Positions 43,831-64,000 of a DNA stretch of 64,000 nt are shown piece by piece. Position 1 is the first letter of the stretch. Every line of letters starts with the position of its first letter. The DNA lies in assembly GCF_030388245.1 (NCBI RefSeq), contig NZ_CP098362.1, positions 62,001-126,000 on the forward strand, written 5' to 3'. The notes under the pieces were generated by a model. That model did no database searches. It was not told the DNA's origin and saw only the letters and a list, made by a program, of their open reading frames with translations. A program made the translations under genes and the position numbers. The DNA comes from Paracoccus sp. TOH. GTDB lineage: Bacteria; Pseudomonadota; Alphaproteobacteria; Rhodobacterales; Rhodobacteraceae.

Positions 43831-44504
43831 GCCTCGACCTCGCGGATGGCGCCGCCGGCGATCAGCCAGCCGATCTCGGGCGGGCTGGGCCAGCCCTGGC
43901 AGCACAGCAGGCCGGAAGACCCCGTCTCGGCGGCCTGGAACCACCAATAGCTGCGCGACGCGGTGGCATGGGCGTGATCGGTGGCGGCCAGCTGCGCCAG
44001 CAGCCCCTCGGGCGGCAGCGACGGGTTGGCGGCCCAGAAGCCGGGCCAGCCCGGCGCCGCATGACCCGGCGGCGGCAGGTCGAGCGCCCGCGCCGCCTCG
44101 CGCGGGTCGAAGCCCTCGGCGCCAAGCATGTCCAGAAGCGCGCGATGCGCGGCGCGATAGAAATCCTGCGCCGCATCCAGCACCGGCGGCGTGCCGCCCG
44201 CCTGCGCCACGATCAGCGGAAAGCGCCGACCGCTGCGGTCGCGCGAGGCCAGCCAGACCCCGCGCAGCGCCTGCCCGGCGCCGGTCAGGGCCGGGCCGAT
44301 CCAGAAACAGACCGCCGGCGCCGCGTCGAACTGCGCCTGCCAGTCCGGCCCGGCCGCGTCGCGCCATTGCCCCAGCACCGCCTGCGCCCAGTCGCCGAAA
44401 CCCTGCCAGCCCTCGGCCAGCCCGGCCGAGATGAAATCGCCAAATCCCGGGTGCTTGCCGTAGAGCCCGGCCGCACCCGCCGTCAGTCGATGCTCTGCGG
44501 ACAT
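43827..44504 (-). CDS. tagF: T6SS-associated protein TagF
   Basis: A 225-residue TagF (DUF2094) protein: GLYGKHPGFGDFISAGL at residues 13-29, then WIGPALTGAGQALRGVW and RRFPLIV. In other bacteria TagF represses T6SS activity by acting on the Fha/PpkA route. It overlaps the end of tssM by 22 bases and the phosphatase start by four. Confidence 0.93.
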   Translation of the reverse strand: MSAEHRLTAGAAGLYGKHPGFGDFISAGLAEGWQGFGDWAQAVLGQWRDAAGPDWQAQFDAAPAVCFWIGPALTGAGQALRGVWLASRDRSGRRFPLIVAQAGGTPPVLDAAQDFYRAAHRALLDMLGAEGFDPREAARALDLPPPGHAAPGWPGFWAANPSLPPEGLLAQLAATDHAHATASRSYWWFQAAETGSSGLLCCQGWPSPPEIGWLIAGGAIREVEA

Positions 44505-48103: not shown

Positions 48104-49761
48104 TTCGCGGCCTCCTGCGGGGCGGGGGCGTCATAGGTGCCCTCGCGCGCCAGCATGATCTCGACCCGGCGGTTGGCGGCCTGGCCCTCGGGCTGGGCGT
48201 TGTCGCCGACCGGATCGTCCTCGCCCCGGCCCTCGGTGGTGACGCGGGCGGGGTCGCTCAGCAAGGGTTTCAGCACCTCGGCCACGCCCTCGGCGCGGGC
48301 GGCCGAGATCTGGTAATTGTCCTTGAACCGGCCCCGGCCCGAGACGGGCACGTTGTCGGTATGGCCCTCGATCAGGATCGGGCCGCTCTCGCCGTTCAGC
48401 ACCTCGGCGATGCGTCCGGCCAGATCGGCGAAGCCCGGCTTCACCGTGACTGAGCCCAAATCGAACAGCTGCAGGTTGCCGACCCGGACGGCGATATAAT
48501 CGCCTTTGGCCTCGACCGAGACGCGGCCGTCCGAGATCTCGGCCGCAAAGGCGTCGCGGATGCGTTGCAGTTGCGGGATCTCGGCCACATAGACCTCGCC
48601 CGGGGTGCGGTCGATCTGGATCACCGGCGCGTCCAGCGCCACGCCGCGCAGATCCTCGGCCGCGACGGCACCGTCGCGGTTGATCAGCGTCAGCAGCGTC
48701 GCGAATGCGGCGACCAGCGCCACGGCGGCGATGCCCGCCACCGCCGGCACCGGGATGGCGCCGAAGCGGCGGGCCTTGCCCTGCACAACCGGCGCCCACA
48801 TCACGGAAATATCCTCGTCCGGGCGCGGATGCACCCGGCGCAGGCTTTCATAGATGGCGCTGCGGATGCGCATGAGCTCGGCCGCGCCGTTCGGCATGGT
48901 GCGGAACTGGCCCTCGAAGCCCAGCGACAGGCAGACCAGCATCAGTTCCAGCAGGTTGTAGTTCTGCGCCGGGGCATAAAGCGCCTTCTCGGCCTCCTGG
49001 AAGAAGCCGACGCCGGAATCGCGCTTGTGGAAGAAGCGCGCGACCATGGAATATTGCTGCCAGTTGCCGCGATCGGCGCCGGGCAGGTTCTGCACGATGT
49101 CGTCGGCCGTGCCGGACAGCGCGTATTTGGCCACCAGCGCCTCGTGCGGGTTGACGCCGGCGGCGACGGCATTGCGCTCGAAGCGGTCGATTTCGCGCGT
49201 GACATGCTCCATCAGCGGCGCGACCTGCAATTCGACCAGCCCGGTGCGCAGCCGCCCGAGCAGGATCAGCAGCGGCGCCGCTGCGGCGATCAGCGGGTTC
49301 GAGGAACTGGCCGCGCCCAGATCGCGCACCTGCATCGCCTGCGCCTGCGGGATGCGCGGCGCCACGCGGTTCTGCGGGGCTTGCTGCGTGGCGATGTCGG
49401 GAAAGAAGCCGCGCTGATCCGGCCCCGCCGCCCGCCCGATCTGCGAGGGATCGGCCGGGCCGAAGGGGCTTTGCCCGCCCTGCGCCGGCTGCTGCCAGCC
49501 GCCGGGATAGCCCTGATAGCCGGGCTGCGGCTGAGGCGCGGCCGGCCGCGACGGACCGCCGATCCAGGTCTGGCCCTCGGCCGGCTGGTTGCCCCAGCCG
49601 CCCGGCTGGCCGAAGGGCGAGCCCGAGCCGCCGCCCGGCCCGCCGATGGCGGTGCGGCCGTCCTCCGGCCCCGGCGCCGGGCGCGACCAGTCCTGCGGGC
49701 GCTGGCCCGGAAGCGGGCCGCCAAAGACCGTCTTGTCGCCGTCGTCGTCCTTGCCCGCCAT
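48100..49761 (-). CDS. tssL: T6SS protein TssL with C-terminal OmpA/MotB domain
   Basis: A 553-residue protein. Low-complexity Gly/Pro-rich N-terminus (1-150) with three copies of T-x-[FI]-G-G-P at Thr11, Thr37 and Thr65; IcmH/DotU domain (about 155-335); a membrane helix (about 350-372); OmpA-like peptidoglycan-binding domain (about 425-545, GHTDNVPVSGRGRFKDNYQIS). In Agrobacterium, PpkA phosphorylation of an N-terminal Thr of TssL is read by an FHA protein; the motifs here suggest multiple such sites. GAGAGG precedes the ATG at 49761, which overlaps the tssK stop as TGATG. Confidence 0.95.
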   Translation of the reverse strand: MAGKDDDGDKTVFGGPLPGQRPQDWSRPAPGPEDGRTAIGGPGGGSGSPFGQPGGWGNQPAEGQTWIGGPSRPAAPQPQPGYQGYPGGWQQPAQGGQSPFGPADPSQIGRAAGPDQRGFFPDIATQQAPQNRVAPRIPQAQAMQVRDLGAASSSNPLIAAAAPLLILLGRLRTGLVELQVAPLMEHVTREIDRFERNAVAAGVNPHEALVAKYALSGTADDIVQNLPGADRGNWQQYSMVARFFHKRDSGVGFFQEAEKALYAPAQNYNLLELMLVCLSLGFEGQFRTMPNGAAELMRIRSAIYESLRRVHPRPDEDISVMWAPVVQGKARRFGAIPVPAVAGIAAVALVAAFATLLTLINRDGAVAAEDLRGVALDAPVIQIDRTPGEVYVAEIPQLQRIRDAFAAEISDGRVSVEAKGDYIAVRVGNLQLFDLGSVTVKPGFADLAGRIAEVLNGESGPILIEGHTDNVPVSGRGRFKDNYQISAARAEGVAEVLKPLLSDPARVTTEGRGEDDPVGDNAQPEGQAANRRVEIMLAREGTYDAPAPQEAAN

Positions 49762-51095
49762 CACGACCTCTCGGGCACGGCCCACAATTCCAGCTTCAGA
49801 TTCGGCCAGTCACCGGCGAAATGCATCCCGATGGCGGTCGCGGTCGAGAACTCGCGCCACAGGGGCGAGTTGCGCTCCAGCCGGAAATAGACGTTCGAGG
49901 ACAGCACCCGGATCTGCCGCGGCGGGTTCGGCAGGTGCTGAAGCGCGATGCCGGGCAGGTTGTTGTTGACGATTTCCGACATGCGGGTGTTCGGCCCGAC
50001 CTTGCACAGTTCGGGGAACTGCATCTGCACCTGCGACAGCGGCTTGGCGCTTTCGACCTCGATGATGAAGGTGGCCTCGCGGAACAGGTTGCGGTCGGCG
50101 ACGGCTGCCAGATAGGAGTTCTGCCGCACCTGCTGCAGGGGCAGCCGGATGGCCCGGCCCACGTCGCGCGACAGCAGGCGCTGGATATCCGCCACGATCT
50201 CGCCGAAACTTTCCTTGGGATTTTCGTGGTCATAGGCCGGATAATCGGGCGCATGGCGGCTGGCGCTGTCGAAGCTCGCCAGTTCCCCCGCCAGCGAGAC
50301 CAGCTCGCGATACAGCGCCTCGGGATGCACGGCCAGGGTGCGGGACAGGTGGCGCAAGACGCCGATCTGCCGGTTCAGCACCATCAGCATCAGGTAATCG
50401 CTGGCCTGCAATCCGCCCCCGGCCGAGGGGTCGGTGGCATAACGCGACAGGCTTTCCAGCCGCGCCTCGATCCAGCCGATCACGCGGGTCAGGTAGCCCA
50501 TGACCTGCGGATGCGCGCCGATGACCAGCGAGGGCGGCGGGAAGGTCTCGTCCAGCGTCACCACGCCGTCGCGCACCTCGGCCACGCGGGCCAGGCGGAT
50601 GTTCTGGTAGCCGGGGCGCGGGGTCTTGCGGATCGCGATTTCCAGCCGCGGCACGGCCAGCTCCAGCACCTGCTCGATCCGCGCCGACGAGGCGCTGTCG
50701 CTGACCGTCTCGGTCACGATGCCCCAGCGGGTCGTCGCGCCCTCGTCCTCATAGGGGGCGGCGTCGCGCATGTTGGGGCTGCTGTCGGGCAGGGTCAGCC
50801 AGACGAATTGCCCGGCCGCGTCCTCGGGCACGCGGACCGGCACCGGCAAGGGTCCGGTGCCCGGCGCGTCGAAAGGGGTGCCGTCGGGCATGATGCCGGC
50901 GACGGCGCGCAGCGCGATCATGCCCTGCTGCGCCTGGTCGCGGTCCAGCACCAGTTCGCCCACGCCCCAGGGATAGGGGGTGATCAGCCGGGTGCGGGCC
51001 TGGACCAGATGCTCGTGATAGCGGTCGGCCTGCTGAAGATGCTGCGGCTGGAGGAACAGACCCTCTTTCCAGGCGACTTTGCTGAACCAGGACAT
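49761..51095 (-). CDS. tssK: T6SS baseplate protein TssK
   Basis: A 444-residue TssK. The N-terminus WKEGLFLQPQHLQQADRYHE and the middle VADIQRLLSRDVGRAIRLPLQ are family hallmarks. It connects the baseplate to the TssJLM membrane complex. It is the first T6SS gene of the operon in this window; the sheath, tube, ClpV and other baseplate genes are not here, nor is tssJ, which some alphaproteobacterial systems lack. GGGAG lies ten bases before the ATG. Confidence 0.95.
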   Translation of the reverse strand: MSWFSKVAWKEGLFLQPQHLQQADRYHEHLVQARTRLITPYPWGVGELVLDRDQAQQGMIALRAVAGIMPDGTPFDAPGTGPLPVPVRVPEDAAGQFVWLTLPDSSPNMRDAAPYEDEGATTRWGIVTETVSDSASSARIEQVLELAVPRLEIAIRKTPRPGYQNIRLARVAEVRDGVVTLDETFPPPSLVIGAHPQVMGYLTRVIGWIEARLESLSRYATDPSAGGGLQASDYLMLMVLNRQIGVLRHLSRTLAVHPEALYRELVSLAGELASFDSASRHAPDYPAYDHENPKESFGEIVADIQRLLSRDVGRAIRLPLQQVRQNSYLAAVADRNLFREATFIIEVESAKPLSQVQMQFPELCKVGPNTRMSEIVNNNLPGIALQHLPNPPRQIRVLSSNVYFRLERNSPLWREFSTATAIGMHFAGDWPNLKLELWAVPERS

Positions 51096-51196: not shown

Positions 51197-54100
51197 TCAG
51201 AATTGCCAGCGGAACTGGCCCGAGACCCCGACGCTGTCCAGCCGGTCGCCGAAGCGCGCGTCGATCCGCGCGCCGGCACTGATCTGGCGGCCGCGGGCCT
51301 TCGGTCCCAGCACCTTGACCCAGTTCGCGCCAAGGCTGACCTCGCCATAGGCGCCCAGATTCTCGGATTTCAGCACCTGCGGCTCGAAATCCGTATCGTC
51401 CGAGGCAAAGACCGACACCGTGGGATCGGCGAAATCCTTGTACCAGGTGCCGGTGGCGAAGGCGTAAAGCGCCGAGTTCCGCTGCTCCTGCACGAAGGTC
51501 TTGGCCACGGTCGCGCCGGCAAAGCCGATCTTGCGGGTGCTGTCCTTGAAGCTCAGCCGATAGCCATCCTCGAAGGGGATGGAATCCGTGGACATCTTCG
51601 ACCAGGCGAAGCCCATGGTCGGCAGGACCGCCCAGCCGCTGTCACCGATCGGCATGGCATAGCTGATCGAGCCGCTGAGCGTCTGCGCGTCGCTGGAAAA
51701 GTCGGTCTCGTCCAAGCCCAGGCCCTTGTAGCCGGGCAGCGGGTTGTTGGCGATGGTGAAGTCCGTGCGCTCGAAGCGGTATTGCAGGTCGGCCTGGAAC
51801 CGCTCGCGCGTCGCGGTGGCGTAGATGCCGGCATAGCGCTGTTCGAAATCGGTCGAGGTATAGGAGGTCAGGATCGCCGTCAGATCCTGCGAGTTGTTGG
51901 GGTTGATCGCATAGACCGGCTGGCTGGTCGAGCCGCGGTTGATGCCGCCCAGCACGCCGAAGGCCATGTTCCAGCCGCCGAAACGGTCGTCGAAACAGGC
52001 CAGGTCGGTGCCGACCTGCATGCCGTAGTAATCGGCCTTGACCTCGCTTTCGACCTTGCTGATGCCATTGTCGGTATTGCCGTTCGCCGTGGCATGGCCT
52101 CCGATGGCGCGTCCCCAGCTGCCGATGCCGCAGGGTTTTTCCGTGTCTTCATAAGCCAGCGAGGTGACGAAGGGGCTGGTCGGCCGGTTCACCACCGAGC
52201 CGATCAGCGACTGCACCAGCGCCACGTTGCCGAAGATCGCGCCCATGGCCGGGTTCAGCTGGCTGACCAGGTCCAGGTTGCCTCGGCCGGCCTCGCGCTC
52301 GATCGAATAGACGATGCGCTCGGAACCGGCCGGCAGCTCGTCATGGCGGAAGACGAAATCGTTCTGCGAGCCGAAGGATTCGTCCACGTCGATCAGCGTC
52401 AGCCGCTCGCCGGATTGCGGGATGGTGTCGCGGTCGCCCAGATCGAAGCTGAGATAGTAGCTGCCGCGCGCCGCGCCGCCGTCCACGACGATCCGGTCGG
52501 CGGTCATGTCGCGCAGGTTCACGTCCAGCGCATAGGTGCCGTTGCCCGACAGCCCGCCCACGGTCAGCACGCCGCCGGTGCTGTCGTCCTCGAGGTCGAT
52601 GGTGCCGTTGTTGGTCACCGCGCCGGTCACGCGCCCCTGGGCGCCCGAGGCATCGAGCATGCCGTGGTTCACCAGCGCGCCGTTCAGCGTGCCCGCCAAC
52701 CCCAGCGTGCTGTCCGAGCCCACCACCGTGCGGGCCGCCGCGATCTGGCGGCCGGCGCCGACCGTGTAATCGGCGTTCAGCATGAAATCGCCGCCGATGC
52801 TCAGGCCGTTCCGGGTGGTCAGCGACCCGCCGTCATAGATCAGATCGCCGGTGATCCGACCGCCCAGCGTCGCGCTTCCCGAGGTCTGCAAAGACCCGTC
52901 CAGCGTGCCGGTCTGGTTCAGCGTGCCCTCGTTCAGCAGATCGCCCCGCAGCGTGCCGAGCAGCGCGAAGCCGGCGCCGGCTGCGTTCAGGCTGGCGGTG
53001 CCGGCCCCGGTCTCGGTCCGGGTCACCAGGGTCGAGCCCGAGGCGACCTCGATCTGGGCCCCGGATTCGTTGCGCAGCCCGCCCAGGATGGTCGCGGTGC
53101 CGCGCGTGGTCAGCGCGCCGGATCGGTTGACCACCCCGCCGGCGACGCTGCCGCCCAGCCGCAGCAGCGATTCATTGCTGACCGTGCCGCCGATGTGGCC
53201 GTCCCATTCGGCCGTGCCGCGGTTCAGCACCGATCCGGTGATCGTGCCGCCACCGCCCAGCCGGCCGGCATTGGCCAGCGAACCCGCCAGCGTGCCGTCG
53301 ACCGTCAGGTCGCCCCCCGCCAGGTTCTGCGCGGCGACCGGGGCCGCCTCGGCCGCCGCGTCGGGATCGGCCATGGTCAGCCGGTTCGGCTCGGCGATGA
53401 TCGCGGTGCCGGCATTGACAAAGCCCTCGGTCACCAGTTCGCCGCCGACGCGCAGGGTGCCCTCCGCCAGGTTCTCGACCGTGCCGACCCGGCCGCCGAT
53501 CCGGGCGTTGCCGGCGTTTTGCAAGACGCCCTCGATGGTGCCCTGCCCGGTCAGCGTCCCCAGGTTGCCCACGTCGCCGCGCAGGGTGCCCCCGGCCAGC
53601 GTGGCCGTGCCGCCGGCGCGGTTCAGCAGGTCGGCATCCAGCGTGCCCGCAAGGCCCAGCCGGTCGTTGTTCTGCACCGTCGCGGCCGAGCGCAGCAGGC
53701 TGCCGGCGCCGATCGAGACGATCTCGTCATTGACTAGCTGGCCGATGGTCAGCGCACCGCTCGCGGTCAGGGTGCCGCGGTTGTGCAGCAGCCCGGCGAT
53801 CTGGCCGGCGCCCGACAGCGTGCCGCTGTTGGCCACGTTGCCGTCGATGGTGCCGGCAAGCGTGGTGGTGGCGCGGTTGTCCAGCGAGCCGTCCAGCGTC
53901 CCGGCCACGGTCAGCCGGTCGCGGTTCAGCAGCGCGTTGCCCGTGGTCAGCGTCCGGCCCGCCGCAATGGCGACGACCTCGTCATTGATCAGCGTCCCGA
54001 CCGCAAGGTCGCCCGACAGGCCCAGCGTGCCGGTGTTCTCCAGCCGCTCGACCTGCCCGGCGATGGTCGCCCGGCCGCTGTTCGCCAGCGTGCCGTCGAT

Positions 54101-57100
54101 GGTGCCGCTGCCGGTCAGCGTGCCGCTGTTGGCCAGCCGGCCAACCAGGGTGCCGCCGGCCAGCGTGGTGTCGGCGAGGTTGCGCAGATCGCCCTGCACC
54201 CGGCCGGCCAGGTTCACGCTGCCGTTGTTGACGATGGCGCTGTCGGAAAGCAGGGTGCTGCCCCGCGCCACGTTCAGCTGTTCGTTGTTGGCCAGCCCGG
54301 CGACGCTGAGCGTGCCGTTGCTGGTCAGCGTGCCGTCATTCGTCACCGTCCCGGTCACCCGACCGCCGAGATAGGCGGCGGCGTTGTTCGCCAGCGTGCC
54401 GTCTATGGTGCCGCTGCCGGTCAGGCGGCCGTTATTGGTGACGGCGCCGGCGATGGTGCCGCCGCTCAGCGCGGTGGTGCCGGTGTTCACCAGATCGGCG
54501 GCCAGCCGGCCCGCCACCCCAAGCTGGTTGCCGTTCTGCACCGCCGTATCGGATTGCAGCGTGCTGCCCGCCGCGACCTCCACCGTGCCGGTATTCACCA
54601 GCGAGGCGGTATGCAGCGTGCCTTCGGATTCCAGCCGGCCGCTATTGGTCACGCCCGCGACCAGCCGGCCGCCGATGGTAGCGGTGCCGCTGTTGGTCAG
54701 CACGCCGGTGATGGTGCCGCTGCCGGTCATCTCGCTGGAATTGCTGACCGCGCCGGTCACGTTGCCGCCGCTGAGCGTGACCCGACCGCCGGCATGGTTG
54801 CTCAGCGCGGCGTCAAGCTGGCCCGCCAGCAACAGCCGGTCGCTGTTCTGCACCGTCGTGGCCGAGCGCAGCACGCCGCCGGAGGCGATGTTGACCAGCT
54901 CGTCATTGATCAGCCCGACGACACTCAGCGTGCCGTTCTGGTTGATGGTGCCGATGTTGATGATCTGGCCGGACACCTGCCCGCTCATCGCCATGGTGCC
55001 GCTGTTCGTCACCGAGTCCGAGATGGTGCCGTTGCCCTGCAGCTGCCCGCTGTTGGTCACCGCGCCATCCAGCGTGCCGCCCGCCAGCACGGTGGTGCCG
55101 GCATTGTCCAGATCGGCATCAAGGGTGCCAGAGACGTTCATGTCGGCCTGGTTCTCGACCGCGGCGGCCGAGGTCAGGGTGCCTGCGACGATCAGCTCGC
55201 CGTCGCCCTCGTTCAGCACGCTCTGGGCCGAGGCCGAAGCGCCGCTGGCGATGGTGAAGCTGCCCTCGTTGGTCAGCGCATTGACATTGGTCATGGCGCC
55301 CGAGGAATCGGCATCGGTGCCGATCAGGAAGCTGCCGCGGTTGCCGATATCGTTGCCTCGCACATCCAGCCCGGCCGAGACCGTGACCTCGCCCATGCTG
55401 TCATTGGTCAGGTTGCCGTCCAGAAAGGCGTCCTGGTCATAGGTCAGGGTGCTGCGGTTCAGCACGTCGCCGATGACGTTCACGTTGTTCACCACCGCGC
55501 CGGCCTCGATCGCGACCAGATCGGCAACGATGGTCATGGCCGAAGGCGTGCCGCTGGTATTGGTGCCGTCCACCACGCCGGAATTGGTGAAGGTGCCGTC
55601 CACGGTCAGCGTCACGTCGCCGGCGGTGCCGTCCAGCGTCAGGTCCGAGCGGTTGGTCAGGTCTCCGGTCACCTGCGACGAGGAATTGACCAGCATCGTG
55701 CCGTGGTTGGTGACGTTGCCGGTGATCTCGGCCCCGTCCAGCGCCAGGGTGGCGCCGCTGTTGTTCTGGATGCCGTCGCTGCCGGTCACCGTCACCGCGC
55801 CGCCGACATTCAGCGTGCCGTCGTTCGAGATGCGCTGGTCCGCGGTCAGCACATGGCCGGCGCCGACCGTGGTGGTGCCGTCGTTGTCCAGCCGGCCGAC
55901 GCGCAGGTTGCCGGTGGTGGTCAGGCTGTCGTTGTTGTCCAGCGTGCCGGTGACGCGGCCGTGCCCGGTCATGGTGGCGTCGTTCTGCACATCGCCGTCG
56001 ACCGTGCCGCCCCGCAGCGCCGTGGTGCCGTCGGCGTTCAGCAGGTCGCCGGTCAGCGTGCCGTCGATATTGGTCCGGCCGCGGTTCTCGACGCGCTCGC
56101 CGGCAGTCAGCTCATGCCCGGCGCCGATGGTGGTGGTGCCGGCGGTATGGGTGATCAGCCGCCCGACACTGACGTCGCCCGCGGTGGTGACGCTGCTGGC
56201 ATTCGACAGCCGACCGAGGATCTGCCCGGCAATCTGCATGGTGCCGGCATTGTCGATGCCGCCGCCGATGATGGCGTTCTCGCCCATGGTCATGGTGCCG
56301 GTCGCGGTGTTGTCAAGCCCGCCCGCCAGGTTGCCGTTCACGGTCAGCTGGGCGTTGTTCTGCAGCGCCGAGCCGGTAGCCTCCAGCCGGTTCCCCGCCC
56401 CGATCACCACCGTGCCGTCATTGGTCATCCCGCCGACAGCCATGTTGCTGCCCGCCGTGACTGTGCCGCTGTTGGTGACATGCCCGGTGATGGTGCCCTC
56501 GCCCTCCAGCGTCCCGGCATTGGCCAGGTTGCCCTGCAGCCGGCCGCCGAACAAGGTGGTGCGGCCGGTTGCCGACGAGGCAACATCGGCATCCAGCTCG
56601 CCCCCGATGGAAAGCTCGCCACTGTTTTCCAGCGTGTCTTCCACCTCCAGCGACCAGTTTGTCGCGACGGTCAGCCGGGCGCCGTCACGGTTGATCAGGC
56701 TGTCGACATGGCCGACGCCGTCCGCAAGCAACTCTGCGGCATTGTCGATTTCACCGTCCACCCGGCCGCGCACAAACAGACGGTCGGTATTCAGCACGTC
56801 CCCGTTCACCGTGCCCCTGATCCTGAGCACTTCGTCATTGGTGATGCTGCCGACATGATCGCCGCGGATCGTCAGGACGCCCGCGTTCGAGACCGTGCCC
56901 TCGCTGTCGCCGCGAAAAATGAGTTCTCCCGGCCCGCTGACGCTGATCTCGTCCGCGGCCTCGACGTCCGAGCGGATCAGCAGTTCCGATCCCTCCGCGA
57001 CGCTGAAGGCGAACGAGCCTCCGCCTGCGCGCAGGGTGCCGCTATCCAGCGTGAAGTTACCCCGTTCAACGGTCAGCCCGCCGGCCTCCACCGTGCCGCC

Positions 57101-57367
57101 GATCCTCAGGTTGATGTCATCGTCCGCTTGCCCGCGCAGCACGCCGATCTCGGTCGATGGCAGCTCGGTCGCATTCTCGCCATTCTCGTCGGTCCAGATG
57201 TCGCTCCACCACCTCCAGGTGCCATCCGCGACCTCGATCTCGCCATCGCCGGGATCGACGTTGTCGAGATACATCTCGGCCCGCGCCGCGCCGGGGCAAA
57301 GCGGCAAGCCGACCAGCGAGATCAGCGCGGTGGTCAGAAACAGATGAGAGCGGGCAAAGCGCCGCAT
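51197..57367 (-). CDS. giant modular autotransporter (type Va)
   Basis: A protein of about 2056 residues. Signal peptide MRRFARSHLFLTTALISLVG...ARA (cleavage near 30); a passenger of repeating beta-helix-like modules (about residues 265-1565); a pertactin-like junction (VDGGAARGSYYLSFDLGDRD, about 1640); and an autotransporter barrel (about 1770-2056) ending in the terminal aromatic RWQF. The passenger is rich in Asn, Gly and Thr and poor in Cys. It is probably an adhesin or surface fibre; no protease triad or RGD is seen. The start is uncertain: ATG 57367 gives a standard signal, ATG 57391 adds eight residues, and neither has a ribosome site. The gene is monocistronic and lies between T6SS and an envelope system without evident link. 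Confidence 0.9.
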   Translation of the reverse strand: MRRFARSHLFLTTALISLVGLPLCPGAARAEMYLDNVDPGDGEIEVADGTWRWWSDIWTDENGENATELPSTEIGVLRGQADDDINLRIGGTVEAGGLTVERGNFTLDSGTLRAGGGSFAFSVAEGSELLIRSDVEAADEISVSGPGELIFRGDSEGTVSNAGVLTIRGDHVGSITNDEVLRIRGTVNGDVLNTDRLFVRGRVDGEIDNAAELLADGVGHVDSLINRDGARLTVATNWSLEVEDTLENSGELSIGGELDADVASSATGRTTLFGGRLQGNLANAGTLEGEGTITGHVTNSGTVTAGSNMAVGGMTNDGTVVIGAGNRLEATGSALQNNAQLTVNGNLAGGLDNTATGTMTMGENAIIGGGIDNAGTMQIAGQILGRLSNASSVTTAGDVSVGRLITHTAGTTTIGAGHELTAGERVENRGRTNIDGTLTGDLLNADGTTALRGGTVDGDVQNDATMTGHGRVTGTLDNNDSLTTTGNLRVGRLDNDGTTTVGAGHVLTADQRISNDGTLNVGGAVTVTGSDGIQNNSGATLALDGAEITGNVTNHGTMLVNSSSQVTGDLTNRSDLTLDGTAGDVTLTVDGTFTNSGVVDGTNTSGTPSAMTIVADLVAIEAGAVVNNVNVIGDVLNRSTLTYDQDAFLDGNLTNDSMGEVTVSAGLDVRGNDIGNRGSFLIGTDADSSGAMTNVNALTNEGSFTIASGASASAQSVLNEGDGELIVAGTLTSAAAVENQADMNVSGTLDADLDNAGTTVLAGGTLDGAVTNSGQLQGNGTISDSVTNSGTMAMSGQVSGQIINIGTINQNGTLSVVGLINDELVNIASGGVLRSATTVQNSDRLLLAGQLDAALSNHAGGRVTLSGGNVTGAVSNSSEMTGSGTITGVLTNSGTATIGGRLVAGVTNSGRLESEGTLHTASLVNTGTVEVAAGSTLQSDTAVQNGNQLGVAGRLAADLVNTGTTALSGGTIAGAVTNNGRLTGSGTIDGTLANNAAAYLGGRVTGTVTNDGTLTSNGTLSVAGLANNEQLNVARGSTLLSDSAIVNNGSVNLAGRVQGDLRNLADTTLAGGTLVGRLANSGTLTGSGTIDGTLANSGRATIAGQVERLENTGTLGLSGDLAVGTLINDEVVAIAAGRTLTTGNALLNRDRLTVAGTLDGSLDNRATTTLAGTIDGNVANSGTLSGAGQIAGLLHNRGTLTASGALTIGQLVNDEIVSIGAGSLLRSAATVQNNDRLGLAGTLDADLLNRAGGTATLAGGTLRGDVGNLGTLTGQGTIEGVLQNAGNARIGGRVGTVENLAEGTLRVGGELVTEGFVNAGTAIIAEPNRLTMADPDAAAEAAPVAAQNLAGGDLTVDGTLAGSLANAGRLGGGGTITGSVLNRGTAEWDGHIGGTVSNESLLRLGGSVAGGVVNRSGALTTRGTATILGGLRNESGAQIEVASGSTLVTRTETGAGTASLNAAGAGFALLGTLRGDLLNEGTLNQTGTLDGSLQTSGSATLGGRITGDLIYDGGSLTTRNGLSIGGDFMLNADYTVGAGRQIAAARTVVGSDSTLGLAGTLNGALVNHGMLDASGAQGRVTGAVTNNGTIDLEDDSTGGVLTVGGLSGNGTYALDVNLRDMTADRIVVDGGAARGSYYLSFDLGDRDTIPQSGERLTLIDVDESFGSQNDFVFRHDELPAGSERIVYSIEREAGRGNLDLVSQLNPAMGAIFGNVALVQSLIGSVVNRPTSPFVTSLAYEDTEKPCGIGSWGRAIGGHATANGNTDNGISKVESEVKADYYGMQVGTDLACFDDRFGGWNMAFGVLGGINRGSTSQPVYAINPNNSQDLTAILTSYTSTDFEQRYAGIYATATRERFQADLQYRFERTDFTIANNPLPGYKGLGLDETDFSSDAQTLSGSISYAMPIGDSGWAVLPTMGFAWSKMSTDSIPFEDGYRLSFKDSTRKIGFAGATVAKTFVQEQRNSALYAFATGTWYKDFADPTVSVFASDDTDFEPQVLKSENLGAYGEVSLGANWVKVLGPKARGRQISAGARIDARFGDRLDSVGVSGQFRWQF
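52670..56565 (-). repeat. tandem modules in the autotransporter passenger
   Basis: About a dozen diverged modules of roughly 85-110 codons. A typical module runs LAGGTLxGxVxNSG, LTGSGTIDGTLxNSG, GTLSVxxLxNDE, AGSTLxSxxxVQNxxxL, AGxLDxxLxN. Modules in the middle to C-terminal half (about 53,500-55,100) are most alike. The central part (about 55,150-55,750) is irregular. DNA repeats are not exact, so the copies are old or under selection only at protein level. Confidence 0.8.
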
Positions 57368-57506: not shown

Positions 57507-59678
57507 TCAACCCTGTCCTTTGCGCCGCAGGCGGTCCATTTCGGCGACGAAGGATCGCAACTCGGCGGTCAGCGGCTGCGCGGGCATGGTCTGGACCGGC
57601 GCCGCCGCGCCTGCCGGTCCGCTCATGCGGCGCTCGGCCCAGTTGCGCAGGTCGGCGATGGACCAGCGCCGCAGGAAGGGGTTCGCGCCGACCACCGCCG
57701 GCCCCATCACGCTTTCCACCGATTGCGCCGGGTCGGCGCGCAGCGCCAGGTCGGCCCCGGCAGGGCCCAGGAAATGCGCCAGATACAGCCGCCCGGCCGA
57801 GATGCCGTGGCCGCGCGCGCGCAGATAGGCCTCGTTCTCCTGCGCCAGGTGGCGGACCATCTGCCGCGACAGCGCCGGGTCGAGCCGCAGGTCCAGCAGC
57901 TCGCGCGCGCCCAGCGTCGCGACCAGGTCCGGGCGATAGCTGCGCATCATCCGCAGCCAGGTGCCCTCGATGAACTGGCCAAGGCCGGTCGCGGTCGAGC
58001 GCGGGTTCTTCGCCGTGGCGTCGCCGCCGCTTTCCACCCGGATGATATGCCCGATCAGCGCTTCGATGGAATCCGAGGCCAGCACCTCGCCGCCGCCGCC
58101 CAGCAGGGGCAGGGGATCGACCGGCCGGCCGTCCTGCACAAGCTGGAAGGCCAGACCCGGCTCGGACCGGCCGGGCGGCAGGCCGGCCCGGCCCAGCACC
58201 GCGCCGCGGGCGATCTCGGCCCCCCGGGCAAGATCCGGGGTGACGGCGGCAAGGCCCAGATAGCGGCTAAGCAGCCCGTCCGCATGGCTGATCTCGACCG
58301 AATCGCCGTCCAGCGCGGTGATGCGGCCGGCGGCGGCGGCCATCACGGGGCTGCCCTGCGGCGCGGTCCAGACGACCTGCCCGCGGCCCGTCTCGGCCTC
58401 TCCACCGGCCGAAGGCGGGACGAAACGCTGCGACAGCACGCCGCCCACCGGCTGCAACAGCCCGTCCGAAGCATCCGGCCGCCGGACGCGCGCGCCCGGC
58501 GCGTAGCACTCGAATCCCTCATCGGCAGGCACCACATAGCAGGGCTTGTCGCCCGATGGGCCGCTGATGCCCACGAACAGCACCGCGCCCGGCCGGTCGG
58601 CGGCGCCGTCGGCATAGATCAGCGTCAACCGGTCCTCGGGATCGGCATAGCCGTCCAGGTCGAAGACCTGCGACATCAGCGCCAGCGCCTCGCCGATGAC
58701 CTCGGGCGGCACGTCGCCGCGCAGCGCCGCCGAATAGATCACGTCCAGCAGCCGCTGCTGGCCCTGCGGCGCCGGGGTGCCGGCTCGGGCCATGGCGTCC
58801 TGCAGCAGCGGCTGGTCGGCCCAGGCATCCGCCGCCGCCGCCAGCTGGCCGGCCGCCGACAGCGCCAGCGAGCCCAGATAGCCCTGGGGACCGTAAAGCG
58901 ACAGCTGGACCACCTCGCGGCCGCCGTCGCGGGGCCGCCAGCGCAGCGCCAGCACGGCGCCCCGCGGCAATCCGCCCGGCAGGGAAAGCTGGCTTTGCAG
59001 CCGCTCGGCCAGACGCGACGCGCTGTCGGCGTCGAAGCCGTTCTCGGTCAGCAGCGCCTGGACCGTGGTGTCGCGCGCGGTCTCGAGGATCGTCTCGCGC
59101 CACAGCGGCGTGCGGTTGGCGGCGGCGCGCAGGAAGACGATGCCCGAGGCGGGATCGGGCGCCGCCGCGCCAGAGCCCGGCAGGGCCAGGCTGGCATTCA
59201 TCAGCCGCTCGCGGCCGCGTTCGGCCTGGAACAGCGCGAATTCCTCGCGCGTCGAAGGCAAAGCGGCGACCAGTTGCCGGTCCCGCGGCACCAGCGCGCT
59301 GTCCAGAAGCGCAAGCTGCGCCGCCCGCCCCGGCACCCGTCCCGAGACGGCCAATGCCGCCGGCGCCGGCAGTTGCCGCGCGCCCTCGCCCTCGCCCGCT
59401 TCCGGGGGCGGGATGATGATCGGGTCGCCGGGAATGTCGGTGAAGGTGTCGCCGCGCACCACCGGTGCGATGTCGAACTGCGATTCCACCTGCACCATGG
59501 CCGGGTCCGCACCGGGTGTCAGCAGGGCCGAAACGCGCGGCGCCAGCATCGGCCCAAGCCAAGCCCCCAGCCCGGTCAAAACCAGCGCCGCCGCCCCGCC
59601 CCGCAGGGCCGAAACGCGGCGACGGCGGCGGCGCGCGCCCTTGCCCATCTGCCGGAAACGGGGATCGACCTCGGCCAT
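57507..59678 (-). CDS. membrane-anchored protein with degenerate LytM and lytic-transglycosylase domains
   Basis: A 723-residue protein. A basic N-terminus (ARRRRRRVSALRG) and one membrane helix (about 26-48) place the rest in the periplasm. Residues about 430-545 resemble an M23/LytM fold (VMAAAAGRITALDGDSVEISHADGL, PVDPLPLLGGG), but the zinc-binding HxxxD and HxH positions are absent. Residues about 540-690 are an SLT-like domain: IIRVESGGDATAKNPRSTA with putative catalytic Glu549, and GLGQFIEGTW. It would bind or cut peptidoglycan. It is third in a minus-strand operon with a peptidoglycan-binding and a DUF1036 protein. Confidence 0.8.
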   Translation of the reverse strand: MAEVDPRFRQMGKGARRRRRRVSALRGGAAALVLTGLGAWLGPMLAPRVSALLTPGADPAMVQVESQFDIAPVVRGDTFTDIPGDPIIIPPPEAGEGEGARQLPAPAALAVSGRVPGRAAQLALLDSALVPRDRQLVAALPSTREEFALFQAERGRERLMNASLALPGSGAAAPDPASGIVFLRAAANRTPLWRETILETARDTTVQALLTENGFDADSASRLAERLQSQLSLPGGLPRGAVLALRWRPRDGGREVVQLSLYGPQGYLGSLALSAAGQLAAAADAWADQPLLQDAMARAGTPAPQGQQRLLDVIYSAALRGDVPPEVIGEALALMSQVFDLDGYADPEDRLTLIYADGAADRPGAVLFVGISGPSGDKPCYVVPADEGFECYAPGARVRRPDASDGLLQPVGGVLSQRFVPPSAGGEAETGRGQVVWTAPQGSPVMAAAAGRITALDGDSVEISHADGLLSRYLGLAAVTPDLARGAEIARGAVLGRAGLPPGRSEPGLAFQLVQDGRPVDPLPLLGGGGEVLASDSIEALIGHIIRVESGGDATAKNPRSTATGLGQFIEGTWLRMMRSYRPDLVATLGARELLDLRLDPALSRQMVRHLAQENEAYLRARGHGISAGRLYLAHFLGPAGADLALRADPAQSVESVMGPAVVGANPFLRRWSIADLRNWAERRMSGPAGAAAPVQTMPAQPLTAELRSFVAEMDRLRRKGQG

Positions 59679-59681
59679 GGC

Positions 59682-60461
59682 CTAGCGGAACATGCCCGAA
59701 CCCATCAGCGACGGGTTGATCTGCCGGGTGGTGGTCGGCGCGCTTGGCGCGGCGCGGGAGGGTTGCGCGCGCTGCGGCGCGGTTCGGGCGGCAGGGGCCG
59801 AGCGGCTTTCGCGCGACGAGGCCGCACGGCTGGCATTGGCGCGCGAGGCCGTCGCCGGCTGCGCCGCCACGGGCGCGGCGACGGCGGCGCAACGCAAACT
59901 GGTGCTGCGGGCGATGCTGCGGAACAGCGGGATCTCGGGGGTGCTGCCGGCCTCGGCCTTGGCGGCCTGCGACCAGCGCTCGACCGCCCGCGCCGAGCCC
60001 GAGCCCCAATCGCCGTCGATGCTGCCGCCATAGCAGTCCATGCGCTGCAATTCGGTCTGGATCGCCTCGGCCAGCCGGTCGGCGGCCGGATCGAAGGCGC
60101 CGCGCCCCAGAAGCCGGTCGAAAAGCGCCGGGTCGCGCTGCCGGATCGCCTCGCGCGCCGCGAAGGGCAGGCCCAGCGGGCCGCGCGGGTCGTAGGCCGC
60201 GAGAACCGCCAGATCGCCGACGATGATCGAGGGCCGGGGCAGGCCGGTCCGGGCAGGCGCATCTGGCCCGGGCGCGGCAGGCTGGGCAGGCTCGGGGCCG
60301 GGCTGCGACGGGGGCGGCACGGCTGGCGCCTCGGAGGCGCGGATCACCTGGTCCGAGGGCAAGGGCGTGATCACCAGCCCCTGCGCCTGCGCGGGCGAGC
60401 CGCAGGCGAGCCAGACCGCCAGGGCGGCGATTCCCGCCAGATATGCCCGTTCTTGTCCCAT
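59682..60461 (-). CDS. exported peptidoglycan-binding-like protein
   Basis: A 259-residue protein with a signal peptide (AYLAGIAALAVWLACGSPAQA, cleavage near 26), a Pro-rich linker (about 45-75), a helical region (AREAIRQRDPALFDRLLGRG), and a short peptidoglycan-binding-1-like unit MDCYGGSIDGDWGSGSARAV (about 140-160). The C-terminal 70 residues are an Ala/Ser/Arg-rich tail. The function is unknown; it lies three bases before the LytM-SLT gene and seven bases after the DUF1036 gene. GAGG precedes the ATG. Confidence 0.75.
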   Translation of the reverse strand: MGQERAYLAGIAALAVWLACGSPAQAQGLVITPLPSDQVIRASEAPAVPPPSQPGPEPAQPAAPGPDAPARTGLPRPSIIVGDLAVLAAYDPRGPLGLPFAAREAIRQRDPALFDRLLGRGAFDPAADRLAEAIQTELQRMDCYGGSIDGDWGSGSARAVERWSQAAKAEAGSTPEIPLFRSIARSTSLRCAAVAAPVAAQPATASRANASRAASSRESRSAPAARTAPQRAQPSRAAPSAPTTTRQINPSLMGSGMFR

Positions 60462-60468
60462 CCGCGCC

Positions 60469-60900
60469 TCAATTCGGCCTTGGCGTCACGAAGACGGTCC
60501 AGTCGGGCCGGTCCTGCGTGTCCACCTCGGCGAAACGCGCGTCCAGGTAGCCGCGCAACAGGCAATCCTGCTGGCCCTCGATCTGGAAGCGCCGCGGCGC
60601 CACGCACATCGGGATCGACCCTACCAGAACCTCATTACCGAAAACATCGGTCGCAAAGACATAATAATAGCGTGACTGCAGCGGCTCGCGCTGCAGGGTC
60701 GCGCATTGGTTCGGCGCCACCCGCCACCAGCCGCGGGTGGCGAAATCCTGACCCGAAGGCTCGGCCAGCGCCACGTTCAGCACGTCGAAGGACTGGTTGC
60801 ACAGCCGCAGCTCGGCCCGCGCCGGCCCTGTCCAGGCCAGGCCCGACAGCCCGGCAACCAGCCATTTCAATGCAGGGTTGATCAAGCGCCGATTGAGCAC
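60469..60900 (-). CDS. DUF1036 exported protein
   Basis: About 143 residues from the GTG at 60900. A signal peptide (WLVAGLSGLAWTGPARA) is followed by LRLCNQSFDVLNVALAE, TRGWWRVAPNQCATL and YYYVFATD, the pattern of DUF1036 proteins, with paired cysteines likely oxidised in the periplasm. The function is unknown. The frame is open to 60978 but that would cover the start of the divergent gene; GAAG is the only, weak, ribosome site. It is the first gene of the minus-strand envelope operon. Confidence 0.75.
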   Translation of the reverse strand: MLNRRLINPALKWLVAGLSGLAWTGPARAELRLCNQSFDVLNVALAEPSGQDFATRGWWRVAPNQCATLQREPLQSRYYYVFATDVFGNEVLVGSIPMCVAPRRFQIEGQQDCLLRGYLDARFAEVDTQDRPDWTVFVTPRPN

Positions 60901-60950
60901 CGCTTCCAGCCATGTTACAGCCCGCAGGGGCAAAGGGAGTGTCAACAGGC

Positions 60951-61445
60951 ATGAAACCGATCCTGACAGCGGGTGCAACCTTTCCGGCAGGCGCCGCCCT
61001 GCCGCATCGGCTTGCGGTTGGGCCGGCGGTTGCCCTGCTGGCGCTGCTGATCGGCCTGGCCGCGCCGCCGCTGCGCGCGCAGGCGCCCGAGGCGATCACG
61101 CTGGAGCTGAACGGCGCCGCCGCCACGCCGGACGGTGCCTGCCAGCTGACGCTGGTGGTGACGAACGGCCTGCCCCAGACGCTCAGGCGCGCCGCCTGGC
61201 AGGTCGCGATCTTCGACAGGGCCGGCGCGGTGCAAAGCCTGCCGGTCCTGGACTTCGGCGCGCTCTTGCCGGGCAAGACCCGCGTCGCGCAATTCGCCCT
61301 GCCCGGCCGGCCCTGCGACCAGCTGGGGCGCATCGTGGTCAACGACGTGGCCGAATGCACGGCCCAGGACGGCTCGGACCAGCGCGCCGCCTGCCTGGGC
61401 GGTCTGGCGACCCGCAACCGCAGCGAGATCGGGTTCGGATTGTGA
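60951..61445 (+). CDS. small exported protein of unknown function
   Basis: A 164-residue protein with a long signal (VGPAVALLALLIGLAAPPLRAQ, cleavage near 43) and a compact beta-rich mature domain with four cysteines (GACQL, RPCDQ, AECTA, AACLG), probably two disulfides. No family recognised. GGGAGT precedes the ATG at 60951. It overlaps the ExbB start by one base (TGATG) and is divergent from the DUF1036 gene across 50 bp, so the two operons probably share a control region. Confidence 0.75.
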   Translation: MKPILTAGATFPAGAALPHRLAVGPAVALLALLIGLAAPPLRAQAPEAITLELNGAAATPDGACQLTLVVTNGLPQTLRRAAWQVAIFDRAGAVQSLPVLDFGALLPGKTRVAQFALPGRPCDQLGRIVVNDVAECTAQDGSDQRAACLGGLATRNRSEIGFGL

Positions 61446-62074
61446 TGCCCCTGGACCTGCCGCTTGTCACCTGGATCGTCTTCGCCGCCCTGGCGGGCCT
61501 GTCGGTGCTGACCCTGACCGTGGTGATCTTCAAGCTGATGCAGTTCCGCCGCATGGGCGTCGGCCGCCACAAGCTGGCCGAGGCGATCCTGGACGACTGG
61601 CTGAACGGCCGCCCCGACGAGGCGCAGAGGAAGGCCCAGCCCGGGCGCACCGTGCTGTCCCGGGTGCTGGGCGCTACCATGTCCGGCCTGCGCGCCCGCC
61701 CCGGCGAACCCGCCTATGGCGAGGAACTGGCCCGCCAGGTCGCGCTGGCCGAGCTGGTGCAGATGGGTGCGCGGATGCGGCTTCTGGAGGCCGTGGCGCA
61801 GATGGCACCGATGCTGGGGCTTCTGGGCACGGTGATCGGCATGATCGACGCCTTCGGCAACCTGGCGCTGAGCCAGCAGACCTCGGACCCGCGCTTGCTG
61901 GCGGGCGGGATCTGGACGGCGCTGACCACCACCGCCGCCGGGCTTGCCATCGCGCTGGTGGCCTATTTCGTCTCGGCCTGGCTGGAGGGCCGGATCGAGG
62001 ACGAGCGGCAGGGGATCGAACTGGCGGTCTCGGCCGCGATCCATGGCCGGATCGCGCGCGCCGCCGGACGCTAG
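61445..62074 (+). CDS. ExbB/TolQ/MotA-family proton channel protein
   Basis: A 209-residue inner-membrane protein with helices near residues 7-27, 118-140 and 155-178. The conserved region AVAQMAPMLGLLGTVIGMIDAF and the later GIWTALTTTAAGLAIALVAY are typical of ExbB/TolQ. With an ExbD it forms the proton-driven motor that energises a TonB- or TolA-like protein. Here it is followed at once by two ExbD genes and a TonB-like gene. Confidence 0.93.
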   Translation: MPLDLPLVTWIVFAALAGLSVLTLTVVIFKLMQFRRMGVGRHKLAEAILDDWLNGRPDEAQRKAQPGRTVLSRVLGATMSGLRARPGEPAYGEELARQVALAELVQMGARMRLLEAVAQMAPMLGLLGTVIGMIDAFGNLALSQQTSDPRLLAGGIWTALTTTAAGLAIALVAYFVSAWLEGRIEDERQGIELAVSAAIHGRIARAAGR

Positions 62075-62077
62075 GCC

Positions 62078-62554
62078 ATGCAAGTGGTGCGGCCCCCGAT
62101 CCGCCCGCCGGGGCTGGACCTGCCGCGCCGACCGCGCCAGCGCGGCGTGTTCGCGATGACGGCGCTGGCCGACGTGCTGTTCCAGCTGCTGATCTTCTTC
62201 ATGCTCTCGGCCAGCCTGGTCGCCTATTCCATGCTGCCGCTGCGCAGCGGCGCGATCCGCGACGGCGGCGGCGGCGACGGCGCAGGGACCGAGGCCGGGA
62301 CCACGGTGACCGATGCCAGCGCCACCGCGGTCTGGACGCTGAACCCGGACGGCATCACCGCCTCTGGCCAGCATTTCGCCCTGCCGCGCCTGGCCGCGCT
62401 GGCGGATGCGCTGGCGGCGCAGGGCACGCGCAACGTGCTGCTGGTGCTGCGCCCCGAAGTGCCGGTGCAGGACGTGGTGACGGTGCTCGAGACGCTGTCC
62501 GCGCATGGCATCGACTCGGTGCAGATCGCCGAGGCGCCGCGGGGCCGGTCATGA
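62078..62554 (+). CDS. ExbD/TolR-family protein with the membrane aspartate
   Basis: A 158-residue single-pass protein. The helix TALADVLFQLLIFFML (about 28-46) keeps the essential proton-carrying Asp32. The periplasmic domain has LPRLAALADALAAQGTRNVLLVLRPEVPVQDVVTVLE, the TolR/ExbD fold. Three bases separate it from exbB; its stop overlaps the next ATG as ATGA. Confidence 0.92.
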   Translation: MQVVRPPIRPPGLDLPRRPRQRGVFAMTALADVLFQLLIFFMLSASLVAYSMLPLRSGAIRDGGGGDGAGTEAGTTVTDASATAVWTLNPDGITASGQHFALPRLAALADALAAQGTRNVLLVLRPEVPVQDVVTVLETLSAHGIDSVQIAEAPRGRS

Positions 62555-62946
62555 GCATGAACCTGCCTTCGCGCGACGGCCGGCGGGTGCAGGTCGATCC
62601 CTCGCTGGCGATCGTCAACATCGTGCTGCTGCTGATCTTCTATTTCCTGCTGGCCGGGCAAGAGCGGCCGGTCGAGACGCCTTTGGACCTGGCCACGACC
62701 ACGACCCTGTCGCCCGAAAGCCTGCCCTCGCCGATGCTGGAACTGCGCGGGCCCGAGGACTGGCTGCTCGACGGCGCGCCGGTCCGGCCCGAGATGCTGC
62801 CCGCCGCGCTTGCCCAGGCGCAGGGGCCGGTGCATCTGCTGATGGACCGGAACGCACCGTCCGGCCTGCTGGTCTCGGTCCTGCGGCGGCCGGAACTGGC
62901 CGGGCACGAGATCCGGCTGGTGACGATGAAGGATGTCGGGCGGTGA
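62551..62946 (+). CDS. second ExbD-like protein, lacking the membrane aspartate
   Basis: A 131-residue paralogue. The single helix SLAIVNIVLLLIFYFLLAG (about 18-36) aligns with ExbD, but the Asp position is Val22 or Asn23 depending on the alignment, and no acidic residue lies in the helix. The periplasmic part is shorter (LPAALAQAQGPVHLLMDRNAPSGLLVSVL) but of the same type. It probably forms a heteromer with the first ExbD. Four-base overlaps join it to both neighbours. Confidence 0.85.
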   Translation: MSMNLPSRDGRRVQVDPSLAIVNIVLLLIFYFLLAGQERPVETPLDLATTTTLSPESLPSPMLELRGPEDWLLDGAPVRPEMLPAALAQAQGPVHLLMDRNAPSGLLVSVLRRPELAGHEIRLVTMKDVGR

Positions 62947-63950
62947 TCGGCCAGCAACCCGCGCCACGCGGTTGGGCCCTGGCGGCGGGCCTGTCGCTGG
63001 CGGTGCATGCCGCCGCGGCCGGGGCGGTGCTGTGGCAGCCGAGCTGGCACTGGTCCGACGGGCCGACGGAACCGGCGCAGATCACCGTCACCGCCCTGCC
63101 CATCCCCACGGCCCCGGAAAGCGACGTGCTGGAGCCGGTCAGCGCCCCAGTGCCGCCCGAACTGGCGGCCGGGGCCGAGGAGATTTCGGCGCCCGAGCCC
63201 GAGCCGGTGGCGCCTTCCGCCTCGCCGGTGCTGACGAACACCGCGCTGCCGACCGCCGACCGGGCCGAGACGCCCGTGCCCCCGCCATCGGCCGGCGAAA
63301 GCGGCCCGGCCGCGGCGGAAACCGATCCGCGCCTGGCCGAGCTTTTCGACCGTATCCGCAGCCAGTTGACCGCGCCCTGCCTGCTGGCGCTGCCGGCGCT
63401 GGACGCCGAGGGGGGGATCCGGCTGAACCTGCTCGCCTCGGACGACGCGCAGATCCCCGGATTGCTGCGCGCGCTGACGCAGGGGCTGGAAACCCAGGTC
63501 GAGGGCCAGGCGGTGCTGCTGGACCCGCGGCAATGCCCCGGCCTGGCCTTCGCGCGGCGCGATGCGCGCTATCCGGTGTTCCCGCTGGCGGTCCGACTGC
63601 AATCCCAGGACGTGGCCAGCGGCGAGAGCCTGCGCGGCACCATATCCGGCGGAGCGGGGCGTTATGTCACGCTGCTGATGATCGACGACAACGGCGTGAC
63701 GCACGACCTGCGCCGCTTTCTGGTCAATGCCGGCGGGCGCATCCGCTTCGACGTGCCGGTGGCCCGAGACGGCGCAGGCCGCGACACCCATCAACTGCTG
63801 CTGGCCGTCGCCACGCCCTCGCGGCCCGAGACGGTCAGCCGCGCCGCGGGCGAGCCGGCCAAGGACTTCCTGGACCAGTTCGCGCGCGAGATCGGCCCCG
63901 AGGCGCTGATCGGCGTCGGCAGCGTCTATGTCCGTCAGGCGAAACCATAG
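62943..63950 (+). CDS. TonB-like envelope-spanning protein
   Basis: A 335-residue protein starting at a GTG that overlaps the previous stop (GTGA). It has an N-terminal membrane anchor (GWALAAGLSLAVHAAAAGAVLW, about 9-30), a Pro/Glu/Ala-rich linker (about 38-130) and a C-terminal domain of about 200 residues with two cysteines (APCLLALPAL, RQCPGLA). The layout is that of TonB/TolA, but the C-terminal domain lacks a TonB signature I can recognise. By position it is the transducer driven by the ExbB/ExbD proteins upstream. Its last 16 bases overlap a convergent gene. Confidence 0.78.
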   Translation: MIGQQPAPRGWALAAGLSLAVHAAAAGAVLWQPSWHWSDGPTEPAQITVTALPIPTAPESDVLEPVSAPVPPELAAGAEEISAPEPEPVAPSASPVLTNTALPTADRAETPVPPPSAGESGPAAAETDPRLAELFDRIRSQLTAPCLLALPALDAEGGIRLNLLASDDAQIPGLLRALTQGLETQVEGQAVLLDPRQCPGLAFARRDARYPVFPLAVRLQSQDVASGESLRGTISGGAGRYVTLLMIDDNGVTHDLRRFLVNAGGRIRFDVPVARDGAGRDTHQLLLAVATPSRPETVSRAAGEPAKDFLDQFAREIGPEALIGVGSVYVRQAKP

Positions 63951-64000
63951 GCGAAGCCGTCGCCCTCGACGCGGATGGCGACATCCGACATCGCCCGAGC
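63935..64000 (-). CDS. 3' end of an unidentified gene (partial, runs off the right edge)
   Basis: Twenty-one codons and a TGA in an open frame ending ...VAIRVEGDGFAYGFA. G+C-rich third positions fit a real gene, and it meets the TonB-like gene tail to tail with a 16-base overlap. Too short to identify. Confidence 0.35.
   Translation of the reverse strand, partial: ARAMSDVAIRVEGDGFAYGFA

Follow-up and report, generated by a model that had tools for sequence, protein, structure and literature searches.

Several described envelope systems resemble a gene block of Paracoccus sp. TOH that encodes an ExbB/ExbD-type proton motor within a type VI secretion system (T6SS) cluster, at positions 57507 to 63950 of the 64,000-nucleotide stretch analyzed here (contig NZ_CP098362.1, positions 62,001 to 126,000; hereafter the window). 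In the Myxococcus AglRQS-Glt machine, one TolQ/ExbB protein is accompanied by two ExbD/TolR proteins, the conserved Asp is described for both AglQ and AglS, GltG combines an FHA domain with a TonB motif, and GltH has a weak autotransporter beta-domain match (PMC3169522, PMC9389320). Compared by description, the Paracoccus locus likewise has one ExbB/TolQ, two ExbD/TolR, FHA, TonB-like and autotransporter parts, together with a lytic transglycosylase, the kind of enzyme reported to tie the Myxococcus machine to the wall (PMC11444678). It differs by an Asn in its second ExbD, by an FHA domain carried on a separate protein and by the giant size of its autotransporter, and no T6SS link is known for Glt. 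Further likenesses are with GldLM of type IX secretion, a proton motor that serves secretion and a moving surface adhesin, but which reportedly has no obvious relationship in sequence to MotAB-type motors and serves another secretion route (PMC8986121, PMC9389320), and with Vibrio fischeri TasL, a T6SS-linked putative lipoprotein reported to mediate cell-cell contact (PMC9040878), the T6SS-linked surface protein being here instead a giant autotransporter associated with a motor.

TonB-ExbB-ExbD and Tol-Pal share with the locus their ExbB and ExbD homologues and a transducer with a His in its membrane helix, often within an S-x3-H pattern; here, however, the two ExbDs are unlike each other, the transducer belongs to no TonB or TolA C-terminal family, and no adjoining receptor, Pal or TolB was seen. 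PpkA-PppA-Fha is the control pathway of other T6SSs, and a kinase, a phosphatase and an FHA protein are also present in this cluster, where, in contrast, the C-terminal domain of the kinase is that of the TonB-like protein. No paper describing the gene combination appeared among those listed by searches of open-licence PMC text, and neither 'exbb' nor 'autotransporter' occurs in the main text of a roseobacter T6SS survey (PMC9515649).

Gene neighbourhoods show that the block is the envelope module of one Rhodobacteraceae T6SS clade and that some genomes lacking that T6SS have retained it as well. Its linked parts suggest an undescribed use of energy at the cell surface, perhaps controlling the T6SS. 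The best-supported of several explanations, to which we tentatively give a probability of about 0.42, is a proton-driven adhesin or sensor that is read by a kinase and has been adopted by one T6SS clade. That the motor, a small four-cysteine (4-Cys) protein and the autotransporter form a unit is, taken separately, likely.

The gene block and its motor

The eight closely packed genes lie, as the sequence-only reading had described, in two divergent operons, with 50 bp between their starts at 60900 and 60951. With three neighbours, they are:

57507..59678, minus strand: LytM-SLT, SLT lytic transglycosylase with a LytM/M23 domain (Pfam M23 4e-11; SLT 0.002, below cut-off)
59682..60461, minus strand: PGBD protein, exported (PG_binding_1 0.02, below cut-off; C-terminus ...GSGMFR)
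60469..60900, minus strand: DUF1036 protein, exported (Pfam DUF1036 8e-35)
60951..61445, plus strand: 4-Cys protein, exported, four conserved Cys (beta-sandwich by fold prediction)
61445..62074, plus strand: ExbB/MotA-type proton-channel subunit (Pfam MotA_ExbB 6e-26)
62078..62554, plus strand: ExbD1 (Pfam ExbD 3e-11; conserved Asp32 in the membrane helix)
62551..62946, plus strand: ExbD2 (Pfam ExbD 0.005, below cut-off; Asn23 at the aligned site)
62943..63950, plus strand: TonB-like transducer, assigned by layout (GTG start)
41165..43063, minus strand: PpkA-like Ser/Thr kinase (membrane helix at about 387-405; C-terminal domain resembling the one in the TonB-like protein)
43066..43830, minus strand: PppA-like PP2C phosphatase (family scan)
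51197..57367, minus strand: giant autotransporter-type protein of 2056 amino acids (Pertactin 7.5e-5)

The motor set of ExbB, two ExbD and a TonB-like protein is complete and is indeed led by a small exported protein, whose supposed Cys-richness amounts to four conserved Cys. The block is no product of chance, as it is found again in other genera. Gene calls come from our own script, with some wrong starts (four ExbD1 and one ExbD2 rows are cut short) and broken genes in one genome (G031; G-numbers designate the genomes sampled and L-numbers the stretches fetched).

The membrane Asp of ExbD1 is present in all 36 readable copies (the four others being cut short) and the Asn of ExbD2 in 39/39 (one other cut short); by counting along the Pfam alignments, the two residues occupy one and the same profile position. 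Such an Asp/Asn pair would offer a test case for the operation of a 5:2-type rotary motor that has a single proton site. The ExbB of the block scores separately from other ExbB/TolQ proteins, block-type ExbB reaching 338-346 bits in 2 of 387 genomes of the class, with no other above 167 bits among the matches listed. As to Zorya defence (ZorAB), a candidate that we rejected, the ZorA match of ExbB is a weak one (about 1e-4), and neither ExbD gives any match.

The TonB-like protein, 91% identical to a P. binzhouensis protein and 99% to one named as P. simplex, has a single N-terminal membrane helix, a Pro-rich linker and a folded periplasmic end. His22 in the helix is invariant in the Paracoccus alignment, and the S-x3-H pattern, in which the N-terminus presumably resembles those of TonB and TolA, is found in 24/40 N-termini, one of these being matched at the wrong place.

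Membership of the ExbB and ExbD families could indicate a TonB-ExbBD uptake set, for metals for instance, that hitch-hikes with the T6SS. Against this, the TonB-like protein matches nothing in Pfam and no TonB C-terminal family of NCBIfam, and its sole match to a TonB chain (E 0.08) is confined to the N-terminus and linker, the TolA match (E 0.33) being likewise restricted to the N-terminal part. No TonB-dependent receptor was seen beside the motor in the window gene list, read by eye, and no TolB, Pal or TolA C-terminal domain is found among the scanned cluster genes. Moreover, the genome has Tol-Pal-like (L006) and ExbB-ExbD-TonB-like gene sets elsewhere, recognized by eye from gene order and N-termini, and the motor is repeatedly linked to the kinase and the autotransporter. 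The earlier view that this is not an ordinary Tol or uptake locus is thus upheld, and an uptake set is very improbable. A possible TonB-dependent receptor, followed by two-component-like genes, was read by eye at 12613-14871, more than 40 kb from the motor.

The company of the motor

Forty loci were compared, namely the one in the window, another 15 from Paracoccus and 24 from other genera. Within 12 genes of the TonB-like gene, a span that under-counts genes lying further away, the 4-Cys protein, ExbB, ExbD1 and ExbD2 are present in 40/40 loci, the PGBD protein in 33, DUF1036 in 31, the autotransporter in 30, LytM-SLT and TssM in 27 each, and the kinase and phosphatase in 25. At the genome level, including copies further off or elsewhere in the genome, the autotransporter is found in 39/39 (P. 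binzhouensis left out). The frequencies of DUF1036 and LytM-SLT bear out the proposal that the two divergent operons belong together, and so do G558 and G690, where the T6SS of this clade lies elsewhere in the genome and the block remains intact at a site apart from the tss genes.

These two are among nine loci without a tss gene in the stretch seen (G558, G690, G029b, G580, G770, G451, G478, G019 and G014). G029b is cut by a contig end and comes from a genome that has such a T6SS, in which it is a second motor locus. For the remaining six, no TssC of this type was found in the genome; all six keep the motor, the 4-Cys protein and the autotransporter, and five of them (not G478) keep the kinase and phosphatase. 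Neither DUF1036 nor LytM-SLT is found in the stretches seen at these six motor loci, nor at G029b and G633. G580, G770, G451, G478 and G014 have another T6SS type, on which their motor may act in trans; G019 (90% completeness) has no TssC at all. Two of the tss-less loci have other neighbours, an ABC-transporter gene beside L052 (G019) and carbohydrate-enzyme genes downstream at L057 (G014).

Conversely, four genomes have the clade T6SS and no motor genes found (G755, G535, G761 and G640), the G755 stretch being cut off by the end of its contig. Both G535 and G761 retain the autotransporter, 4-Cys protein, PGBD protein, DUF1036, LytM-SLT and kinase; G640 keeps DUF1036, LytM-SLT and the kinase, without any autotransporter, 4-Cys, PGBD or motor gene seen. 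From the gene content of G535, G761, G640 and the motor-only loci, DUF1036 and LytM-SLT thus go with the T6SS, and the 4-Cys protein with the autotransporter.

The main rival explanation is that the motor powers the opening of peptidoglycan for assembly of the T6SS membrane complex, the TonB-like protein activating LytM-SLT through the PGBD and DUF1036 proteins. The frequent presence of these three genes near the motor (33/40, 31/40 and 27/40 for PGBD, DUF1036 and LytM-SLT) and the undivided block of G558 and G690 favor it. So do the LytM zinc ligands, which are intact in 16/16 non-Paracoccus copies (they are lost in 9/9 Paracoccus copies), and the lytic transglycosylase through which the proton-driven gliding machine of Myxococcus is reported to be connected with the cell wall (PMC11444678). 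On the other hand, LytM-SLT and DUF1036 are not seen, in the stretches covered, at the six motor loci whose genomes yielded no TssC of this type, and both occur without the motor in G535, G761 and G640, so that we hold this explanation to be doubtful. The sequence-only reading had proposed a dedicated motor driving peptidoglycan remodelling: the conserved proton motor stands, while its link to peptidoglycan is separable both ways and is not the best reading, because the steadier company of the motor is the 4-Cys protein (40/40) and the autotransporter (39/39).

The properties of the envelope proteins are as follows. The SLT Glu (Glu548 in the window protein) is kept in 25/25 LytM-SLT copies; the basic N-terminus of the window protein is by eye a probable membrane anchor, not called by the hydropathy script. 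PGBD relatives of several genera have an N-terminal caspase-like domain (Pfam 1.1e-37 in G580, 1.2e-36 in G451); a local profile finds this region in 12 PGBD proteins of 11 further or same genomes (e.g. L127:3626-5767 and L131:14678-16558), with the aligned Cys kept, and the window protein is without it. The predicted fold of the 4-Cys protein is nearest to IrmA, then to SadB. The autotransporter has a signal-like N-terminus, a Cys-free repeat passenger and the C-terminus FRWQF; its Pertactin match (7.5e-5) is just above the cut-off, and it matches no barrel family and no solved structure.

The TonB-like protein and the kinase are related by their C-terminal domains (hhalign 98.8%, 5.5e-17); among 1434 proteins of the loci fetched, the domain of the former matched the TonB-like and kinase families only. 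Two conserved Cys are 52 residues apart in both window proteins (146-198 in the TonB-like protein, 443-495 in the kinase), and the two genes are adjacent and convergent in 19/24 non-Paracoccus loci by our count. All three observations could be explained if the motor were a signalling input only, the TonB-like protein and the kinase competing for one periplasmic ligand, the proton gradient setting kinase activity and the autotransporter being a separate accessory. This is nevertheless unlikely, as the kinase is present without the motor in G535, G761 and G640 and away from it in G478, G558 and G690, and as a rotary-type motor seems expensive for sensing alone. A module-type kinase also lies beside an other-type T6SS at the second locus of G478 (L206), away from the motor locus of that genome.

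For the proton-driven adhesin or sensor read by a kinase, the following mechanism can be envisaged. Judging from the ExbB/ExbD family, the proton gradient would, through ExbB and a mixed axle of ExbD1 (Asp) and ExbD2 (Asn), move the TonB-like protein, the periplasmic end of which would engage the giant autotransporter at the outer membrane. The IrmA/SadB-like 4-Cys protein would assist, and the surface adhesin would be displayed, tensioned or tested. The PpkA-like kinase, having the same periplasmic domain, could read the state of the adhesin and, together with the phosphatase and the FHA protein TagH, license T6SS firing, by analogy with the PpkA/PppA/Fha pathway. LytM-SLT might open the peptidoglycan for T6SS assembly, with DUF1036 and the tailed PGBD protein completing wall contact. 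The recurrence of proton motor, giant surface protein and T6SS kinase as a group, also without that T6SS, makes it possible to test directly how a T6SS senses contact and whether it draws on the proton gradient.

Distribution and the T6SS clade

TonB-like matches are found in 13/61 genomes including its own, all within the genus. The TonB-like profile matches 6/387 genomes of the class sample, only two of them strongly, and 29/395 Rhodobacteraceae genomes, 25 of them strongly (>=111 bits); the module is, with searches of this sensitivity, a feature of the Rhodobacteraceae. TssC is present in 96 of these 395 genomes, including all 29 with a TonB-like match, and the probability that the 25 strong ones would all have TssC is 3e-17 (hypergeometric, kinship ignored); 20 of these 25 share a particular clade of sheath. 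Within Paracoccus, the TonB-like gene is found in 13/37 genomes and TssC in 14/37.

In the TssC trees, 28 sequences of motor-bearing genomes and four of motor-less genomes form one branch (100/99), which is to be read with few other T6SSs sampled, the other-type TssCs being a few of those found. The TssCs of the motor-bearing G451, G478, G580, G633 and G770 fall outside it; G633 is mixed, with TagF, TssM and TssL beside the motor and a TssC of another type on that contig. Two rows with very long branches (G707 and G692), probably in a wrong frame, were given no weight.

The patchy spread in the family could reflect neutral co-inheritance within a mobile T6SS island. However, functional residues are conserved, and genomes lacking this T6SS type retain the set in at least two distinct clades: in the ExbB+ExbD1+ExbD2 tree, G580, G770 and G451 form one supported clade and G019, G014 and G029b another. 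Neutral co-inheritance is accordingly the least probable of the explanations considered. G478 lies elsewhere in that tree, labelled as T6SS-linked though its 20.5-kb contig shows no tss gene.

The surrounding T6SS cluster and a shared C-terminal tail

The block had been proposed to be a candidate undescribed envelope machine; it is embedded in a T6SS, genes of which are present on both of its flanks, partly beyond the window, and this T6SS context is certain. Besides the kinase, phosphatase and autotransporter genes, the window contains the following genes, assigned by family scan:

34076..38683, minus strand: PAAR-Rhs T6SS effector-type protein
38689..39114, minus strand: DcrB-family protein, between VgrG and PAAR-Rhs
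39114..41069, minus strand: VgrG (TssI)
43827..44504, minus strand: TagF
44483..48103, minus strand: TssM
48100..49761, minus strand: TssL with an OmpA domain
49761..51095, minus strand: TssK
63935..64000, minus strand: tssH (ClpV), 3' end only in the window, next gene after the TonB-like gene

Past the window end come tssG, tssF, tssE, hcp, tssC, tssB, tssA, tagH (FHA) and a DUF6931 gene, so that TssA-C, E-H, K-M, Hcp and VgrG are together in one cluster, TssF being placed by position and cross-locus similarity, without a family scan. TssB, C, E, G, H, K, M, VgrG and DotU/TssL score above the cut-off in family scans; TssA (97.9 of 160.85 bits), Hcp (51.9 of 58.9) and the long form of TssL (136 of 139.8) are matched below it. 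The outer-membrane lipoprotein TssJ (PF12790) has no match in this Paracoccus genome. PF12790 matches 2/37 motor-bearing genomes, both on a contig of another T6SS, and 8/43 other genomes; since so few match, a TssJ-less state is common among T6SSs of the family.

The PGBD proteins and a variable small exported protein, otherwise unlike them (L030-L136), tend to carry a C-terminal G-[VIMLA]-[FY]-[RQ] tail. The gene of the small protein, not present in the window, precedes that of the 4-Cys protein in 29 of the loci examined (G535, G761 and 27 motor loci). Among 1632 distinct proteins, the tail is matched by 49 (24 small, 23 PGBD and two further calls of the same families, in G761 and G764), against 0.30 expected from composition, a count that is descriptive because the motif was first noticed on these very proteins; the strict tail is mismatched in 16/63 members (29 small and 34 PGBD). 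In the window it is encoded at 59682-59696, and the DNA pattern for G-[VILM]-F-R-stop (some codons covered) occurs once in this genome, at the PGBD gene.

The shared tail points to a putative docking site. It enters a bolder explanation, in which a stand-alone proton-driven surface machine would use its asymmetric motor to pull the autotransporter through the TonB-like lever, the kinase would read the load with the lever's own periplasmic domain, the peptidoglycan-binding and small proteins would dock by their tail, and one T6SS clade would have adopted the whole as a contact trigger. In this complete form, it is rather unlikely.

Two further genes of the cluster can be mentioned. The DUF6931 gene (L005:6332-6916) adjoins the FHA gene and is also retained in the tss-less Paracoccus motor loci G019 and G014. 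Directly downstream of the PAAR-Rhs gene, with a 4-base overlap with its end, a small minus-strand gene without a Pfam match (33642-34079) could, from its position only, possibly encode an immunity protein.

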